Shown piece after piece: positions 15,303 through 24,512 of a stretch of DNA of 64,000 nucleotides. The stretch's first letter is position 1. Every line of letters starts with the position of its first letter. The notes below the pieces were generated by a model. That model made no database searches, was not told the origin of the DNA, and worked only from the letters and a program-made list of their open reading frames with translations. A program made the translations under genes and the position numbers. Source of the stretch: an uncultured Acetatifactor sp. (lineage in GTDB: Bacteria; Bacillota; Clostridia; Lachnospirales; Lachnospiraceae); NCBI GenBank assembly GCA_947625675.1, contig CANQPH010000008.1:1-64000 (forward strand), read 5' to 3'.

Positions 15303-15511
15303 TAATTTTGCTTACCATTCACGGCCACATAAAAGAACAGCAAGGCATGGCAAGCTCGCTTGCCAATGCCTTGTCGGCTTTTTATGTGGCTGTAATTGGT
15401 CACTTCACCCAAATAAGCAAAACACAAAGTGGCTTAAGCCACGGCAGACGGCGTAAGCCGGCTGGTTTTGCGCATGCGGGGTGAAGGGGCCGTGAATGGT
15501 AACTAATTTTG
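15303..15511. mobile_element. MITE-like non-autonomous element with TIRs and flanking 8-bp direct repeat
   Basis: 15-bp terminal inverted repeat TTACCATTCACGGCC (15312-15326) / GGCCGTGAATGGTAA (15488-15502), flanked by direct repeats TAATTTTG (15303-15310 and 15504-15511). No internal ORF of note; strong internal hairpins. Confidence 0.7.
15400..15456. repeat. 57-bp direct repeat, copy 1 (inside MITE-like element)
   Basis: TCACTTCACCCAAATAAGCAAAACACAAAGTGGCTTAAGCCACGGCAGACGGCGTAAG; copy 2 differs at 2 positions. Confidence 0.9.
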
Positions 15512-15607
15512 TTTGGCGGCTGAGGGAACACCATTTTATGAGCAAAGGGAGTCGCAAAGCGACGGAAAGCGCGTAGCGCGGCTTTGCGAATGGTGTGGGC
15601 TGAACTG

Positions 15608-15664
15608 TCACTTCACCCAAATAAGCAAAACACAAAGTGGCTTAAGCCACGACAGACGGCGGAA
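15608..15664. repeat. 57-bp direct repeat, copy 2 (overlaps the threonine aldolase 3' end)
   Basis: TCACTTCACCCAAATAAGCAAAACACAAAGTGGCTTAAGCCACGACAGACGGCGGAAG, 208 bp from copy 1. Confidence 0.9.
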
Positions 15665-16694
15665 GCGCCCCAATTTCCCTGCAAAGCTCTTCCACCGCCT
15701 CCGGCTCCGTGGCCCAGCTGGTGCAGAACCGGACGGCGCTGTGGCTCGAATCCATACGTTCCTGATAGGAATAGACGTACTTTTTTCCCAACTGTTCCAA
15801 CGCCGCATCCGGCAGGATCGGGAAGACCTGGTTGGTATGGCTTTCCACCAGGAAGGGGAAGCCCTTCTGACGGAAAGCCTCCCGGAGCCGCTCCGCCAGT
15901 TCGTCCGCATGCCTGGAAATCTCCAGATACAGATCTCCTTCCAAAAGGGCCAGGAACTGCACGCCCAGGAGCCGACCTTTGGCCAGCATTCCTCCCTTTT
16001 GCTTCAGGATATAGCGGAAATCCTTTTTCAAAAGGGGATTCGTGATCACCAGGGCCTCGCCGAACAGGGCCCCTTCCTTGGTCCCGCCGATATAAAAGGC
16101 ATCACAGAGCCTGGCCAGATCCGACATGGACACATCGTTGCCAGCCGCCGCCAGGCCATAGCCCAAGCGGGCTCCGTCTATGTAGAGGAACAGTCCGCAG
16201 CTGCGGCAGACCTTGGCCATCTCCTCCAATTCCTCCAGCGTGTACAGGGTGCCCAGCTCCGTGGGATGGGATAGATAGACCATCCCGGGCTGCACCATAT
16301 GCTCAAAGGCCTCGTCGGACACATGGGCCTTATAGTATTCCTCCACCTGGGAGGCCGCAAGCTTTCCGGCTTTCCCGGGCAGCGCCAGCACCTTGTGTCC
16401 CACCGCTTCCACCGCTCCCGTCTCATGCACGTTGATGTGGGCGGTGCGGGCCGCCAGCACTCCCTGGTGGGGGCGCAGGGCCGCACCGATCACGGTCAGG
16501 TTGGCCTGGGTCCCTCCCACCAGGAAGTGCACGTCCGCCGAGGGGGCGCCGCATTTTTGCCGGATCACCTCCCGGGCTCTTTCACAATAGGGATCCGTCC
16601 CGTACCCTTCCGTCTGCTCCAGATTGGTCCTCGCCAGGGCCTCCAGGACCCTGAGATGGGCCCCTTCATTGTAATCGCAGTTAAAATAAATCAT
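15642..16694 (-). CDS. Low-specificity L-threonine aldolase (PLP-dependent beta-eliminating lyase family)
   Basis: FNCDYNEGAHLRVLEALARTNLEQTEGYG...FLVGGTQANLTVI...HINVHETGAVEAVGHKV...YIDGARLGYGL...DAFYIGGTKEGALFGEALV. Confidence 0.9.
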   Translation of the reverse strand: MIYFNCDYNEGAHLRVLEALARTNLEQTEGYGTDPYCERAREVIRQKCGAPSADVHFLVGGTQANLTVIGAALRPHQGVLAARTAHINVHETGAVEAVGHKVLALPGKAGKLAASQVEEYYKAHVSDEAFEHMVQPGMVYLSHPTELGTLYTLEELEEMAKVCRSCGLFLYIDGARLGYGLAAAGNDVSMSDLARLCDAFYIGGTKEGALFGEALVITNPLLKKDFRYILKQKGGMLAKGRLLGVQFLALLEGDLYLEISRHADELAERLREAFRQKGFPFLVESHTNQVFPILPDAALEQLGKKYVYSYQERMDSSHSAVRFCTSWATEPEAVEELCREIGALPPSVVA

Positions 16695-16709: not shown

Positions 16710-17141
16710 CTATTTCCATTTGAAAATGATGATTCCCGCAATGGCCGTCGCCATCCCCAGGGCCTTCCGCCACTCCCAGGGCTGCTTTTCCACGCCCCAG
16801 ATTCCCAAAAGCTCGATCAGGTAGGCCACGACCAGCTGGGAAATCACGATGAGCATCACCGCCCGGGCCGGTCCCAGGGAATCCATGCTTTTGATCACCG
16901 TATAGGTGATAAAGGCGCCGATGGCCCCTCCCAGCAGCATATACCTGGGTTCCACCCGAAGAACCGCCGTCAGAGAACTCCTGTCCGTGAAAAGCCAGGC
17001 TCCCAGGCATACCAGAAGGGCCGTGGCCTGTACAAAGACGTTGGCCGCCCAAATGCTGGAGGACTTGGTCACCTCCGTGTTGAAAACGCCCTGGACACTC
17101 ATCAGGGCCCCTGAAATCAATGCAATCAAAAAACCAATCAT
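16710..17141 (-). CDS. DMT-superfamily transporter (YdcZ/DUF606-like, EamA-type)
   Basis: 143 aa, about five TM helices: MIGFLIALISGALMSVQGVFNTEVTKSSSIWAANVFVQATALLVCLGAW. Confidence 0.75.
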   Translation of the reverse strand: MIGFLIALISGALMSVQGVFNTEVTKSSSIWAANVFVQATALLVCLGAWLFTDRSSLTAVLRVEPRYMLLGGAIGAFITYTVIKSMDSLGPARAVMLIVISQLVVAYLIELLGIWGVEKQPWEWRKALGMATAIAGIIIFKWK

Positions 17142-17212
17142 ATGGATTTTCCGCCTTTCCGAGAGACCGCTGGGGCAGCCCCTCTATAAGGTTAGAATAT
17201 CCATATGATTGG
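17134..17212 (-). ncRNA. Nested-hairpin leader RNA; candidate cis-regulatory element containing the transporter start codon
   Basis: Perfect 14-bp inverted repeat CCAATCATATGGAT / ATCCATATGATTGG closing a nested hairpin (CCUU/AAGG, AGAG/CUCU, GCUG/CAGC). The ATG at 17141-17139 lies inside the 3' arm. Confidence 0.6.
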
Positions 17213-17216
17213 CATT

Positions 17217-18722
17217 TTATCCAAGACCTCCGTCCGGACTCATCTGCATCTGTATCTGGTTGGACAGCTCCTCCAACAATTCCGGGACGTCTCCCCCGTT
17301 CCACACCTTGGAAAACAGCACCTCCAGCTGAATCCAGAGGTTGCTGGTCTCGATCATCTTGGGCAGGGGAATACTGTTCCCATATTCCTCTTTGAACACG
17401 GCAAGATCTTCATCCGATGCATCCGCCGAAAGGGCGGCCGCAGGATGACCCGTCCAGGAATATAATGCGCCGCTGTATTCCTCCGCCAGGAAAGCTGCGA
17501 ACTCGTTGGCCAGCTCCTTGTGCTCGCTATAGCCGTTCACCGCCACTGCCGTGGTCACGGACATGGAACGGCTGCCCAGCCTATCGCTCATGGCCGGCAT
17601 GATGGTCAAATCATACAAATAAGGGAAAGCTCCCTCTTCCCGGGCTTCCATCAGGCGGCCCAGCACGTCCACGGTAGCGATGGTAAACACGATCTTGCCG
17701 TCCAGGAAATCCTGTATCACGGAATCATAGCTCACATTGTCCGATTCTATGGAGAAAAACTGGTTCAGAGCCTTGTAGGTTTCCAGATTTTCCAGGGTTT
17801 CTTCATTGTAAATATTCACGTTTTCCTTGTCGTCCCCGGCATCGCCGCCGACGATCATGGAATCCCCCACGATCCAATAATTATAGAAGATGTTGTTCAC
17901 ATCCCATTTCATGATGCCGTCCACGCCCTCGGAAACGTCGAAGGTATCGCCGATGTAGAGAATGTCATCCACCGTCTGGGGAATCCCGGAGACCAGGAGT
18001 TTGCCGATCCTCGCCTGTTCCAAAGCCAGGGCCTCCGGATCCGTCTCCTCTTCCGTTCCCTCCAGGCTATCCCCTTCCCTGTCTCCAGACATGTCTCCGG
18101 TACCGTCTCCGGCCGTCCCGTCAGAACCTTCGCCATCCGTTCCGCCGTCTTCGGCCTCTCCCTCCATCAGATCCTCGTCCTCCTGGCCCACCTTGTTCCC
18201 CTGCTGCTGAAGCCACTGATCCATGTAGGTGCGGTTGTAGAGCAGCACGGTGGTGTCATAATAAAAAGGATAGGCCACCAGTTTATCATGATAGGTCACT
18301 GCGGACAAAGCCGCCTGGGGAAAATGGGAAAGGTTGCAGATCCCTCCCTGATCCGTGATTTCCGAAGCCAATCCCGCCAGATACGCCTTCCCCAGGGAAT
18401 CGTTGCCCACAAGGTATGCGTCCGGCCCTTCCTCCGTATGGAGCGTGGCCTGGTTGATGGCCTCCAGATATTCGCTTTCGTCCACCAGCTTCGGAATCAC
18501 ACGAACGTCCCGGCCCTCTGCGAAGGCCACCGCCGCACTGCCGATGAAATCCGACAGTTCCTCTTCTGAATACCAAAAATAGATGGTTTCCTTCCTGTCA
18601 AACAGGGAAAGGCCCGTGAGTTCCTCGCTGGCCCCGGTCATCTCGAACCGACTGCCCAAGACGGCCCCCGCAACCATGCAGAGCACGATGAATACCGCCA
18701 AAATCCTATGTCTGAAATGCAT
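17217..18722 (-). CDS. Extracellular solute-binding protein (family 1-like), orphan
   Basis: N-terminal hydrophobic signal/anchor; YLVGNDSLGKAYLAGLASEIT...LVAYPFYYDTTVLLYNRTYM...; acidic Gly/Asp/Glu insertion (about aa 190-235). Confidence 0.75.
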   Translation of the reverse strand: MHFRHRILAVFIVLCMVAGAVLGSRFEMTGASEELTGLSLFDRKETIYFWYSEEELSDFIGSAAVAFAEGRDVRVIPKLVDESEYLEAINQATLHTEEGPDAYLVGNDSLGKAYLAGLASEITDQGGICNLSHFPQAALSAVTYHDKLVAYPFYYDTTVLLYNRTYMDQWLQQQGNKVGQEDEDLMEGEAEDGGTDGEGSDGTAGDGTGDMSGDREGDSLEGTEEETDPEALALEQARIGKLLVSGIPQTVDDILYIGDTFDVSEGVDGIMKWDVNNIFYNYWIVGDSMIVGGDAGDDKENVNIYNEETLENLETYKALNQFFSIESDNVSYDSVIQDFLDGKIVFTIATVDVLGRLMEAREEGAFPYLYDLTIMPAMSDRLGSRSMSVTTAVAVNGYSEHKELANEFAAFLAEEYSGALYSWTGHPAAALSADASDEDLAVFKEEYGNSIPLPKMIETSNLWIQLEVLFSKVWNGGDVPELLEELSNQIQMQMSPDGGLG

Positions 18723-18797: not shown

Positions 18798-19997
18798 CTA
18801 TAGCTGCAGGCCGTCCAGAGAAGCGGTCAAAATCTCCGCCATCTCGTCCACGTTTTCCTTGGAAATAATGAGCGGGGGCACGAAACGAATGATGTTGGGG
18901 CCCGCATTGATGAGCAGCATCCCCCGCTTCACCGCCTCGTTTATAATGGGCGCCACGGGGCAGGAGAAAACCAGGCCCTGCATCAGGCCTGCGCCCCGGC
19001 GGGTTTCAATACAGTCATATTTCGCCGCCAGCTCGTCCAGCTTCCCTTCCAGGTAAGGGGTAATTTCCCTCACATGTTCTATTATATGATTCCGCTCAAA
19101 TAAATCAAGCACTTTTTCCACCGCTGCGCAGGCCAGAGGATTCCCTCCGTAAGTGGTGCCGTGATCTCCCGCCGTCAGGGAATGGACCGCCACATGCTCC
19201 GTCATGAGAAAAGCTCCTACCGGCACCCCGCAGCCCAGGGCCTTGGCCGTGGTCATGATGTCCGGCTTCACCCCATAACGCTGCCAGGCGTACATATAAC
19301 CGGTCCGCCCCATGCCGCACTGGATCTCGTCCAGGATGAGCAGAATGTCCCGCTCATCGCAGAGCTTGCGCAGACCCCTCAGGAATTCCTCCGCAGCGGG
19401 ATGCACCCCGCCCTCTCCCTGTATCGTTTCCAGAAGGATGGCGCAGGTCTTATCGGATACCTGTTCCAGAACGCTTTCCAGATCATTCAGACGGGCGAAG
19501 CGGATGTTCCCGATGAGGGGCTCAAAAGCTTCCCGATAATGAGGATTGCCTGTCACCGCCAGGGCCCCCATGGTCCTGCCGTGGAAGGAATGCTCCATGG
19601 CGATGATCTCGTGGTCCGTGCTGCCGTCCTTCAGATAAGCGTATTTCCGGGCCGCCTTAAGGGCCCCCTCTATGGCCTCCGCCCCGGAATTGGTGAAAAA
19701 CACCCGATCCATGCCGGAAACGGCCTTCAGCTTCCGGGCCGCTTCCACCGCCGGCACGTTATAATAGTAATTGGAGGTATGGATCAGCTTGTCGATCTGC
19801 CCCTTCAAAGCGTCGTTGTACTCCTGATTATGATACCCCAGGGCGAACACTGCGATACCGGCACAGAAATCCAGGTATTTTTTTCCTTCGATATCATAGA
19901 GATAGACTCCTTCCCCCCGGTCCAGCACGATCTGGTACCGGTTGTAAGTATGCAGCAGATCGGCTTCCGCCTGATCAATGTATTCCTTCATATTCAT
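18798..19997 (-). CDS. argD: Acetylornithine aminotransferase
   Basis: MNMKEYIDQAEADLLHTYNRYQIVLDRGEGVYLYDIEGKKYLDFCAGIAV...FTNSGAEAIEGALK...LLILDEIQCGMGRTG...GTTYGGNPLACAA; next to argB. Confidence 0.95.
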   Translation of the reverse strand: MNMKEYIDQAEADLLHTYNRYQIVLDRGEGVYLYDIEGKKYLDFCAGIAVFALGYHNQEYNDALKGQIDKLIHTSNYYYNVPAVEAARKLKAVSGMDRVFFTNSGAEAIEGALKAARKYAYLKDGSTDHEIIAMEHSFHGRTMGALAVTGNPHYREAFEPLIGNIRFARLNDLESVLEQVSDKTCAILLETIQGEGGVHPAAEEFLRGLRKLCDERDILLILDEIQCGMGRTGYMYAWQRYGVKPDIMTTAKALGCGVPVGAFLMTEHVAVHSLTAGDHGTTYGGNPLACAAVEKVLDLFERNHIIEHVREITPYLEGKLDELAAKYDCIETRRGAGLMQGLVFSCPVAPIINEAVKRGMLLINAGPNIIRFVPPLIISKENVDEMAEILTASLDGLQL

Positions 19998-20047
19998 GTT
20001 CCTGTGATTTCCTTTCTTTTCCAGGTCCGGGCCGATTACCGGACGGT

Positions 20048-20953
20048 TCACGCCGTCTCCTGGCCGTCCTCGTCGGCGATGATGGCGGTTCCGATTCCTT
20101 TGTTGGTGAAGATCTCCAGCAGGAGACAGTGGGGAATCCTGCCGTCCAGGATGTGCACCCGATTCACCCCGTTGCGAATGGCGGAAGTGCAGTTGTTCAG
20201 CTTCGGCAGCATGCCTCCCCCGATCAGGCCGCCCCCGATCAGGTTCTCCGCCTGGGTGGCCGTGAGTTTGGAAACGATGGAGGACTTGTCGTTGAAATCC
20301 AGATACAGCCCTTCCACGTCCGTCAAAAAGGCCAGCTTTTCCGCATGCACCGCCTTGGCGATGGCGCAGGCGGCATCGTCCGCATTGATATTATAGGTCC
20401 GGAACTCATCGTCCAGCCCGATGGGAGCCACGATGGGAAGAAAATCCTTTTCCAGCAGATCATAGAGCACCTTGGGGTTCACCTGGGTGATCTCCCCCAC
20501 GAAACCGATGTCCTGGCCGTCCGCATATTTTTTCTCCACCTGGAGCAGGCCCCCGTCCTTGCCGCTGATACCCACGGCTTTGACGCCCAGCTCCTGCACC
20601 ATGGTCACCAGGTTCTTGTTCACCTTGCCCAACACCATCTCGGCGATTTCCATGGTTTCCTCGTCGGTGACCCGCAGGCCGTTCACGAAGCGGGCCTCCT
20701 TGCCCACTTTGCCCACCCAGCGGCTGATCTCCTTGCCGCCCCCGTGGACCAGGATGGGCTTGAAGCCCACCAGCTTCAACAGCGTCACGTCCTTGATCAC
20801 GTTTTTCTGCAGTTCCTCGTTGCTCATGGCGCTTCCGCCGTATTTGATCACGATGATCTTGCGATTGAATTTCTGAATATAGGGAAGGGCCTCCACCAGC
20901 ACCTCCGCCTTCCGCAGCACCTGCTGCATATCCTGTTCCATATCAGATATCAT
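20048..20953 (-). CDS. argB: Acetylglutamate kinase
   Basis: [10 protein letters not shown]...[16 protein letters not shown]...VGEITQVNP...[18 protein letters not shown]. Confidence 0.95.
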
Positions 20954-20978
20954 CCTTTCCGGCTGCGGCAAAACCGCA

Positions 20979-21048
20979 GCAAACCTTCCAATAATTTCCA
21001 ATTAGCCTTTTCGGTTTTCAGCTGCGGTAATTCCGCAAACCTTCCAAT
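20979..21048. repeat. Imperfect tandem repeats in the argJ-argB spacer
   Basis: GCAAACCTTCCAAT at 20979-20992 and 21035-21048 (56 bp apart), each preceded by a CTGCGG...CCGC stem-like motif. Confidence 0.65.
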
Positions 21049-21080: not shown

Positions 21081-22304
21081 CTAGCTACGGTAATCCGCAT
21101 TGATCTTCACGTATTCATAGCTCAAGTCGCAGCCCCAGGCCGTGGCGCAGGCCTCGCCCATGTGCATCTCCACCAGGATGGTCACCTCAGGCTCGGACAA
21201 AATCTCAGTGGCCTCTTCCTCGCTGTAATCGCAGGCCGCCCCGTCCCCGAAAATATGAATCCGACCCTTCGTTCCCTGGAAATAGAGGTCCACCTTCTCC
21301 GGGTCGAATTGGACGCCGGAATACCCCAGGGCACAGAGGATCCTGCCGAAATTGGCGTCATGGCCGAAAACCGCCGCCTTGGTCAGGGAGGAACAGATCA
21401 CGGACTTCGCCAGGATTTTCGCCTCCCGAACCGTGGCCGCCCCCTCCACCTTCACTTCGATGAGGGCCGTGGCCCCTTCCCCGTCCCCGGCCATTTTCCG
21501 GGCCAGATAAGTGTTGACCGCCAGAAGGGCCTCATAAAAGGTTTGATAGGCCTCTCCTTCCTCTATGATCTCCTCGTTGCCTGCCAGTCCGTTGGCCAGC
21601 ACCAGAAGGGTGTCATTGGTGGAAGTGTCCCCGTCCACGGAGATCATGTTGAAGGTATCCTCCACGCTCTCCCGCACCGCCTTCTGCAGAAGCTCTTTGG
21701 AAATGTTCGCATCCGTGGTCACGAAGCCCAGCATGGTACACATGTTGGGATGAATCATGCCGGAGCCCTTGCACATACCTCCCAGGGTCACGGTCTTGCC
21801 GCCCACTTCAAACTGCACTGCGATCTGCTTCGGCACCGTGTCCGTGGTCATGATGGCCCGGGCCGCCGCCAGTCCCGCTTCCTGGGAAGCGGCCTTGTCC
21901 CCCGCCAGCGCCCGGATCCCGGCCACCGCCTTGTCTATGGGCATCTGCATGCCGATCACCCCGGTGGAGGCCACCAGCACGGAGGAAGCCGGAACGCCCA
22001 GGGCCTGGGCCGCCGCCGCCGCTTCGGCCTGACAGCAGTCCATCCCCTGCCTGCCGGTACAGGCGTTGGCGATGCCGGAATTGACCACCACCGCCTGGGC
22101 GTAGGGCGAATTCTTGACAACGTCCTGATCCCACAGGACCGGGGCCGCCTTGACCACATTGCTGGTAAAGGTGCCCGCCACCCTACAGGGCTGCGCGCTG
22201 TAAACCAGGGCCATGTCGGTCCTGCCTTGATATTTAATTCCTGCGGCACAGGCCGCCGCCTCAAATCCTTTTGCGGCGGTGACGCCGCCTTCCAACCATT
22301 TCAT
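21081..22304 (-). CDS. argJ: Bifunctional ornithine acetyltransferase / N-acetylglutamate synthase
   Basis: MKWLEGGVTAAKGFEAAACAAGIKYQGRTDMALVYS...VNSGIANACTGRQGM...ASTGVIGMQMPI...GGMCKGSGMIHPNMCTMLGFVTTDA...DGDTSTNDTLLVLANG. Confidence 0.96.
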   Translation of the reverse strand: MKWLEGGVTAAKGFEAAACAAGIKYQGRTDMALVYSAQPCRVAGTFTSNVVKAAPVLWDQDVVKNSPYAQAVVVNSGIANACTGRQGMDCCQAEAAAAAQALGVPASSVLVASTGVIGMQMPIDKAVAGIRALAGDKAASQEAGLAAARAIMTTDTVPKQIAVQFEVGGKTVTLGGMCKGSGMIHPNMCTMLGFVTTDANISKELLQKAVRESVEDTFNMISVDGDTSTNDTLLVLANGLAGNEEIIEEGEAYQTFYEALLAVNTYLARKMAGDGEGATALIEVKVEGAATVREAKILAKSVICSSLTKAAVFGHDANFGRILCALGYSGVQFDPEKVDLYFQGTKGRIHIFGDGAACDYSEEEATEILSEPEVTILVEMHMGEACATAWGCDLSYEYVKINADYRS

Positions 22305-22380
22305 CTCACACCTCCTGCCCATCCAAAATGCGGGCGTTTTCCCCGGCTTCCTCTCGCCGCAATCTCCCTGTGCGTATTTA

Positions 22381-22444
22381 GAGCATCTTCCCCTGCGCAT
22401 TTCACAAGAGCTTTCTCTTGCGCATCCCGAGAGCATCTTCCCCT
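22381..22444. repeat. Short imperfect direct repeats upstream of argJ
   Basis: GAGCATCTTCCCCT at 22381-22394 and 22431-22444, with intervening TGCGCAT motifs. Confidence 0.6.
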
Positions 22445-23252: not shown

Positions 23253-24311
23253 TTACGGGAAGCAGGGCACCAGATCCAGCCCCTCGCTCTCCTCCAGACC
23301 GAAGAGCAGGTTCATATTCTGCACCGCCTGTCCGGCGGCCCCCTTCACCAGGTTGTCCAGGGCTCCCATCATGATGATGCGGCCCGTGCGCTCATCGATG
23401 ACGAAATTGACGTCCACGTAATTGCTGCCCTCCACCCATCTGGTTTCGGGGCAGGCGCCTTTTTCCAACACCCGGACGAATTTTTCCTTCCCATAATATT
23501 TGTCATAAACGGCCTTGATCTCTTCGTAGGAAGGCAGGCTTCCATCCTCTTTTCTCCGAAGGGAAGCGTATTCCGTCACCAGGATCCCCCGGTTCATGGG
23601 CACCAGGTGGGGAGTGAAGCTCAGGGCGACCTGGCCGCCTCCGGCATAGCCCAGCTGCTCCTCGATCTCCGGAGTGTGCCTGTGAGAGGCCACCCCGTAG
23701 GCCTTGATATTTTCATTCACTTCGCAGAACAGGTTGGGAACCTTGGCTCCCCGCCCCGCCCCGGAGGTGCCGGACTTGGCGTCGATGATCAAAGTGCTTA
23801 AATCGATGAGCCCTTCCTTTACCAGGGGATATGCGGTCAAAATAGAGCAGGTGGTGTAACACCCGGGATTGGCCACTAATCTGGTGGAAGACGTGATTTT
23901 ATCCCGATTTATCTCGCACAGGCCATAGACCGCCTCCGGAAGGAACTGAGGAGATTTATGCTCAATACCATACCATTTCTCATAGACCGCCACATCCTTG
24001 ATCCGAAAATCCGCCGACAGATCCACGATCTTGACCTTGGACAAAATCTCTTCCGTCAAAAGTCCCGCCAAGAATCCCTGGGGAGTGGCGGTGAAAATCA
24101 CGTCCACCTGATCGGCCAGTTCCGCCAGGTCATCGTCCCGGCAGACATCCTCCACGATCTGAAACATGTTTTGATAGACCTGGTAATATTTTTTGTCAAT
24201 GTAGCTTCTGGAACCGTACCAGACCACCTCGGCCTGCCTGTGACCCGTCAGGATCCGCACCAGCTCCTCCCCGGCATAGCCGGTGGAACCTATGATTCCC
24301 ACTTTGATCAT
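23253..24311 (-). CDS. argC: N-acetyl-gamma-glutamyl-phosphate reductase
   Basis: MIKVGIIGSTGYAGEELVRIL...VANPGCYTTCSILTAYPLV...DAKSGTSGAGRGAK...SHRHTPEIEEQLG. Confidence 0.96.
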   Translation of the reverse strand: MIKVGIIGSTGYAGEELVRILTGHRQAEVVWYGSRSYIDKKYYQVYQNMFQIVEDVCRDDDLAELADQVDVIFTATPQGFLAGLLTEEILSKVKIVDLSADFRIKDVAVYEKWYGIEHKSPQFLPEAVYGLCEINRDKITSSTRLVANPGCYTTCSILTAYPLVKEGLIDLSTLIIDAKSGTSGAGRGAKVPNLFCEVNENIKAYGVASHRHTPEIEEQLGYAGGGQVALSFTPHLVPMNRGILVTEYASLRRKEDGSLPSYEEIKAVYDKYYGKEKFVRVLEKGACPETRWVEGSNYVDVNFVIDERTGRIIMMGALDNLVKGAAGQAVQNMNLLFGLEESEGLDLVPCFP

Positions 24312-24356
24312 GCTGCTTCCTCTTTTCCTTGCTGCGCTGATTCGCACTGATTCCAT

Positions 24357-24385
24357 ATCATAGCGCACTTTTGGGGAAAATACAA
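24357..24385 (-). promoter_or_regulatory. Sigma-70-like promoter of argC
   Basis: Minus strand TTGTAT - 17 nt - TATGAT, about 45 nt upstream of the argC ATG. Confidence 0.65.
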
Positions 24386-24430
24386 GCCCTAAATTCTTGT
24401 AAAATAAGGAGATTCCATAGAAGATATAAC

Positions 24431-24512
24431 GCAAATCCCCATTCATGCAAACTCATTTTTAGCGCAAATCCCCATTCATTTTCATATATTTTCTGCACAA
24501 ATCCCCATTCAT
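24431..24512. repeat. Three direct repeats with exact 33-bp period upstream of argC; candidate operator array
   Basis: GCAAATCCCCATTCAT at 24431-24446 and 24464-24479, and ACAAATCCCCATTCAT at 24497-24512. Confidence 0.85.

Follow-up and report, generated by a model that had tools for sequence, protein, structure and literature searches.

Comparative analysis strongly supports a cis-acting hairpin that would sequester the start codon of ydcZ, a transporter gene located behind arginine biosynthesis genes in the window (the whole stretch of 64,000 nucleotides analysed here). We propose, with a probability of about 0.68, that this hairpin insulates ydcZ from read-through and has a forespore-type promoter nested in it: it would terminate the RNA reading through from the arg operon and lock its ribosome binding site (RBS), and the gene's own transcript would be made without the 5′ arm. 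The evidence for this proposal, all of it drawn from sequence, consists of the hairpin, its covariation, selection on an adjoining U-tract, the operon context, a promoter-like motif and the co-occurrence of ydcZ with sigG. Coordinates of the features can be found in Table 1.

Table 1. Features of the ydcZ element and of the upstream operon in the window.
Feature	Position	Strand	Basis
Outer stem, 5′ arm (CCAATCATATGGAT)	17199..17212	-	sequence, fold, covariation
Outer stem, 3′ arm (ATCCATATGATTGG), holds ydcZ AUG and codons 2-3	17134..17147	-	sequence, fold, covariation
U-tract TTTTTT, codons 4-5, adjoins stem, terminator-like	17128..17133	-	sequence, codon-choice test
Shine-Dalgarno (SD) region GGAAAGGCGG, predicted to be largely paired in read-through RNA	17151..17160	-	sequence, fold
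-35-like GGATA (conserved form GNATA), overlaps upstream stop codon	17218..17222	-	sequence, motif in other genera
-10-like TATTCTA, 18 nt past -35-like box	17193..17199	-	sequence, 87 homologues, SASP promoters
Putative transcription start, downstream of 5′ arm	17187	-	position of -10-like box
ydcZ, DMT_YdcZ (PF04657), 143 aa	16710..17141	-	profile match
Solute-binding-protein (SBP) gene (SBP_bac_8), next upstream in operon	17217..18722	-	profile match
argD (TIGR00707)	18798..20051	-	profile match
argB (TIGR00761)	20048..21001	-	profile match
argJ	21081..22436	-	called by sequence
argC	23253..24446	-	called by sequence; putative site of the genome's single strong TIGR01850 match

The minus-strand RNA from 17125 to 17220 folds with a minimum free energy of -48.2 kcal/mol, compared with -21.8 ± 3.4 kcal/mol for shuffled sequences (z -7.7, 0/200 as good). 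The initial annotation had described a nested hairpin whose 14-bp outer stem carries the ydcZ AUG in its 3′ arm. The computed fold matches these coordinates exactly, with 17212-17199 paired to 17147-17134, the AUG at 17141-17139 and the three inner stems as given; an additional G.U pair (17213/17133) extends the outer stem. The TAA at 17219-17217 (minus strand) is the stop codon upstream of the hairpin, which fills the gap to ydcZ. The same annotation had noted the absence of a U-tract. This does not hold, as UUUUUU abuts the 3′ arm directly, and the element therefore combines the stable stem and directly adjoining U-tract of an intrinsic terminator.

The ydcZ product was matched to DMT_YdcZ (PF04657) with 103.2 bits, for a gathering score of 24, which corrects the YdcZ/EamA-like label first suggested for this gene. 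ydcZ is the last gene of the operon (argC-argJ-argB-argD-SBP-[hairpin]-ydcZ), and a close co-directional upstream gene is present, as an RBS hairpin blocking read-through requires. The SBP gene is located directly upstream in most of 88 loci of the genus, and in 117/125 by profile; in genera that lack it, argD stands upstream of ydcZ. The 5′ arm comes after the upstream stop codon, at a distance of usually 3-30 nt, often 15-75 nt and, in the window, 4 nt (four negative distances correspond to misassigned arms). In other genera, curated by eye, the hairpin was found in 27 of 50 arg/SBP contexts versus none of 17 other contexts. Many arg-context loci of these genera are without a start hairpin, and separate terminators were present in 8/23 hairpin-less versus 0/27 hairpin-bearing arg-context gaps. 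Six of the loci counted as hairpin-less have a form here called type II, in which the SD is the 3′ arm and is followed by a U-tract and then by the AUG. Six YdcZ loci of other Clostridia families likewise have a terminator-like hairpin immediately ahead of the start codon, with the RBS in its 3′ arm. Downstream of ydcZ, no conservation is seen among loci. In the window this side is occupied by a PLP lyase gene (threonine-aldolase-like, 15642-16694), shared by only a couple of other loci, with two 60-nt direct repeats at its end (15399-15458 and 15607-15666, 97% identical, 208 nt apart).

Some 100 genomes of the genus, named contigs (Acetatifactor and relatives) and further genera of Lachnospiraceae supplied the orthologues. 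Upstream of DMT_YdcZ orthologues, the hairpin is present in at least 27 other genera and, within the genus, in about 120 of 125 distinct loci; 123 of the 125 upstream regions pass the detection rule, a few of them by chance assignment, hence the approximate count. RNAalifold found the outer stem unprompted, and 97.1% of cells are paired in it versus at most 47% for slid structures. Changes in codons 2 and 3, synonymous and non-synonymous alike, are answered by matching changes in the 5′ arm. In the genus, the third base of codon 2 and its partner are A:T in 86 loci, G:C in 29, G:T in 8 and A:C in none; at codon 3, the corresponding pairs are A:T (72), T:A (28), G:C (4) and G:T (13). Non-synonymous compensation at codon 2 is found in other genera, for example ATGATGGGA/TCCCATCAT, ATGACCGGT/GCCGGTCGT and ATGGCTGGT/GCCGGCTGT. 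When arms are swapped between loci, variable positions retain 315 ± 7 Watson-Crick pairs instead of 424, and 50 double-change cells were observed versus 12.4 ± 2.7 after shuffling. Independent contrasts, on a tree for which only the adjacent SBP gene was used, all run in one direction (about 8.1:0, 3.8:0 and 2.7:0). A lack of conservation or covariation had been named at the outset as a sign against the element; the outer stem is both conserved and covarying.

A model built from the genus gave one strong match per genome, always at ydcZ, and five other genera behaved likewise. The remaining matches had E-values of 0.001 or worse, several being antisense to the ydcZ site itself. The element is thus single-copy in the genome and ydcZ-specific, so that a repeat family was rejected, and the scattering in non-leader contexts against which the initial annotation had cautioned was not seen. 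An Rfam search of the element returned no family match, only sub-threshold noise, in line with the earlier remark that no riboswitch class was recognisable; assignment to a riboswitch or known Rfam family was discarded for want of a covariance-model match. The loop varies freely in sequence, and its length varies between about 4 and about 280 nt across loci. Insertions of about 100-280 nt are present in the loops of five loci, some with strong hairpins of their own, and both arms are intact.

Phenylalanine codons 4 and 5 are TTT in 177 cases and TTC in 4, compared with 71 and 53 at codons 6-20 (p 5e-20). The U-tract is retained in 46 of 49 loci whose flanking bases cannot pair, and helix extension is therefore no explanation for it. 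On this evidence of codon choice, the U-tract downstream of the stem is under selection. U-rich codons near the start may have other causes, including the AU bias of start regions, and the U-tract is weak in a few hairpin loci.

A motif resembling (C/T)ATACT, preceded by GNATA at a distance of 16-18 nt, is found where the 5′ arm borders the loop, whether or not the motif is paired. The strict pattern GNATA-N16-18-[CT]ATACT was present in 22 of 106 upstream regions from other genera, for a shuffle mean of 0.14 (maximum 2) and no occurrence in 172 kb of background; it also appears in loci without a start hairpin, four of which serve as examples. It is rare in the window's genus (6/125), so that the promoter claim is weaker for the window than for other genera. 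The window reads GGATA-N18-TATTCTA, its -35-like box being GGATA and not GHATA. Across 87 homologues of the genus, the -10 has an invariant A, and the GG and T are almost as constant. A looser form, GG..A...T, is present in 111/125 genus loci and overlaps the stem, and part of its conservation could come from stem pairing. SASP genes are textbook targets of SigG, for which the consensus is GHATR-N18-CATWHTA. In the same genomes, they carry GTGTA-N17-TATACTA (other genera) or [GT]CATA-N17-CATACTA (Acetatifactor). SigG-type boxes at conserved spacing are thus found at ydcZ in other genera and partly in the window's genus. In C. difficile, SigF/SigG promoters have G before and A after the -10 (PMC3789822). 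No clear sigG-like motif was seen at the class-level YdcZ loci of other families, which confines the promoter claim to Lachnospiraceae. A SigA-type promoter was rejected, no TTGACA being seen by eye at the right distance. A shared palindrome, GATAAGTG...CACTTATC, also separates the promoter from the start codon in SASP genes of the window's genus (six loci).

The distribution of ydcZ follows that of sigG. In 299 genomes, nearly all from different genera and counted with kinship ignored, both genes were present in 171, ydcZ alone in none, sigG alone in 29 and neither in 99; ydcZ thus occurs in 171/200 sigG-bearing and 0/99 sigG-less genomes, where sigG presence was split by E-value at a gap between 1e-41 and 1e-55, with matches lying below the family's curated cut-off. 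When only argC-bearing genomes are considered, the counts become 132/0/21/53 in the same order. Of the 99 sigG-less genomes, all without ydcZ, 53 retain the control gene argC. The window's genome carries sigG and a SASP gene. A literature search for YdcZ with arginine or sporulation, or for DUF606 with sporulation, found nothing relevant.

In the proposed mechanism, read-through RNA from the arg operon (argC-J-B-D-SBP) would hold both arms, so that the hairpin would fold and transcription would terminate at the U-tract. In RNA escaping termination, the SD and AUG of ydcZ would be hidden by the hairpin, as both prediction and covariation indicate. The -35-like box stands just before the 5′ arm, the arm is in the spacer and the -10-like box begins at the arm's end; with such a layout, RNA from the gene's own promoter would start in the loop and lack the 5′ arm. 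The promoter-like motif is thus placed where a mechanism of the spoIIIG kind would need it. The start region would be more open in this transcript: the predicted openness of positions -14 to +2 increases moderately, from a mean of 0.26 to 0.44, with a rise in 100 of 110 loci. Start-region openness shows a weak trend with arg upstream context (p 0.08) and a stronger one with any co-directional upstream ORF (p 0.004). Since the promoter resembles the SigF/SigG forespore type, ydcZ would be expressed in sporulating cells and remain silent on the arg operon transcript of growing ones. From sequence features we infer the activity of the promoter, the choice of sigma factor and termination at the U-tract. 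Transcript starts inside the element, which the initial annotation had listed as evidence against its own reading, are close to what we propose.

The hairpin could instead belong to the working mRNA and be opened by a ligand, a protein or a small RNA. Locking of the SD and AUG in a very stable, covarying stem would suit such a regulated switch, and a position behind a biosynthetic operon would suit a product-controlled exporter. We nevertheless consider it unlikely: no aptamer is conserved in a loop of such variable length, Rfam offers no match, a promoter-like motif lies within the element, and the usual 3-30 nt between upstream stop and 5′ arm leave no room for an upstream sensor. A ligand aptamer in the loop was rejected as neither loop sequence nor loop structure is conserved. 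The variable, aptamer-less loop, the selected U-tract and the internal promoter-like motif argue for an insulator rather than a ligand sensor. The translational switch of the initial annotation thus survives as sequestration of the start codon, backed by conservation and covariation, and is not supported as a switch of the riboswitch kind. Alternatively, a plain intrinsic terminator of the arg operon could overlap the next gene by chance, without any design joining insulation and promoter. This would account for the selected U-tract, for type II loci, which are canonical terminators immediately before the AUG, and for the separate terminators used instead at other loci. It is improbable because changes in codons 2-3 are tracked in many genera although the position of a terminator is free, because the SD is paired too in many loci, because two SD-locking hairpins have no U-tract, and because long loops are unusual for terminators.

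The hairpin might also be opened by ribosomes ending SBP or argD translation, which would then initiate on ydcZ. In many loci, including the window, the upstream stop codon is near, but the 5′ arm is never within the upstream gene, its distance from the stop is variable, and the element persists behind either SBP or argD, making this coupling very improbable. Coupling to SBP translation in particular was rejected, the stop-to-arm distance being too variable and SBP being absent in other genera. Control by a leader peptide encoded in the 5′ arm can hardly be credited. The short ORF MDILTL* pointed out by the initial annotation does exist in the window, but no more than 63 of 115 homologous arms contain an AUG, neither the peptides nor their lengths are conserved, and the AUG in the arm is a consequence of the CATG/CATATG palindrome at the start codon. 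In four loci the 5′ arm AUG is, by eye, in frame with ydcZ through the loop, and an N-terminally extended YdcZ is possible there.

Beyond the read-through insulator of the window, a wider claim, for which we see an even chance, is that Lachnospiraceae-wide dual insulators (terminator plus start-codon/SD lock) around a forespore promoter silence ydcZ in growth and reserve it for the spore. If so, YdcZ would join the sporulation genes as a new member with a physical link to arginine synthesis in gut Lachnospiraceae, and an undescribed RNA/DNA element would explain the stage-specific expression of a gene within a vegetative biosynthetic operon. The orphan transporter family DMT_YdcZ would gain a testable sporulation role in abundant gut bacteria, and the single anecdotal case of B. 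subtilis spoIIIG would become a conserved, countable strategy.

The ydcZ element shares features with several known systems. As in Rfam riboswitches, a structure in the 5′ leader would hide the SD and AUG; unlike them, it has no match and no conserved ligand-binding part. As in intrinsic (Rho-independent) terminators, the stem ends in G-C pairs, the U-tract abuts it and an A-tract often precedes, whereas loops can be as long as about 280 nt and the 3′ arm doubles as the start region of the following gene. Its promoter-like motif resembles SigF/SigG promoters (SASP genes of the same genomes; C. difficile, PMC3789822) in its -35-like GNATA, a spacer of 17-18 and a -10-like (C/T)ATACTA, many ydcZ loci having GG before and A after the -10, but the candidate motif is degenerate in the window's genus. 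The closest analogue would be the read-through hairpin of B. subtilis spoIIIG. This large hairpin (20+ bp) is proposed to keep spoIIGA-sigE (spoIIG) read-through RNA from being translated (PMC5942855, Fig. 1D), and it cannot form in RNA from the forespore promoter PsigG (PMC5942855). In both cases the hairpin is proposed to block read-through translation and to be absent from own-promoter RNA. As opposed to spoIIIG, ydcZ encodes a transporter and follows arginine genes, the start codon and codons 2-3 fall within the arm, a U-tract adjoins the stem, and covariation extends over many genera of another family.
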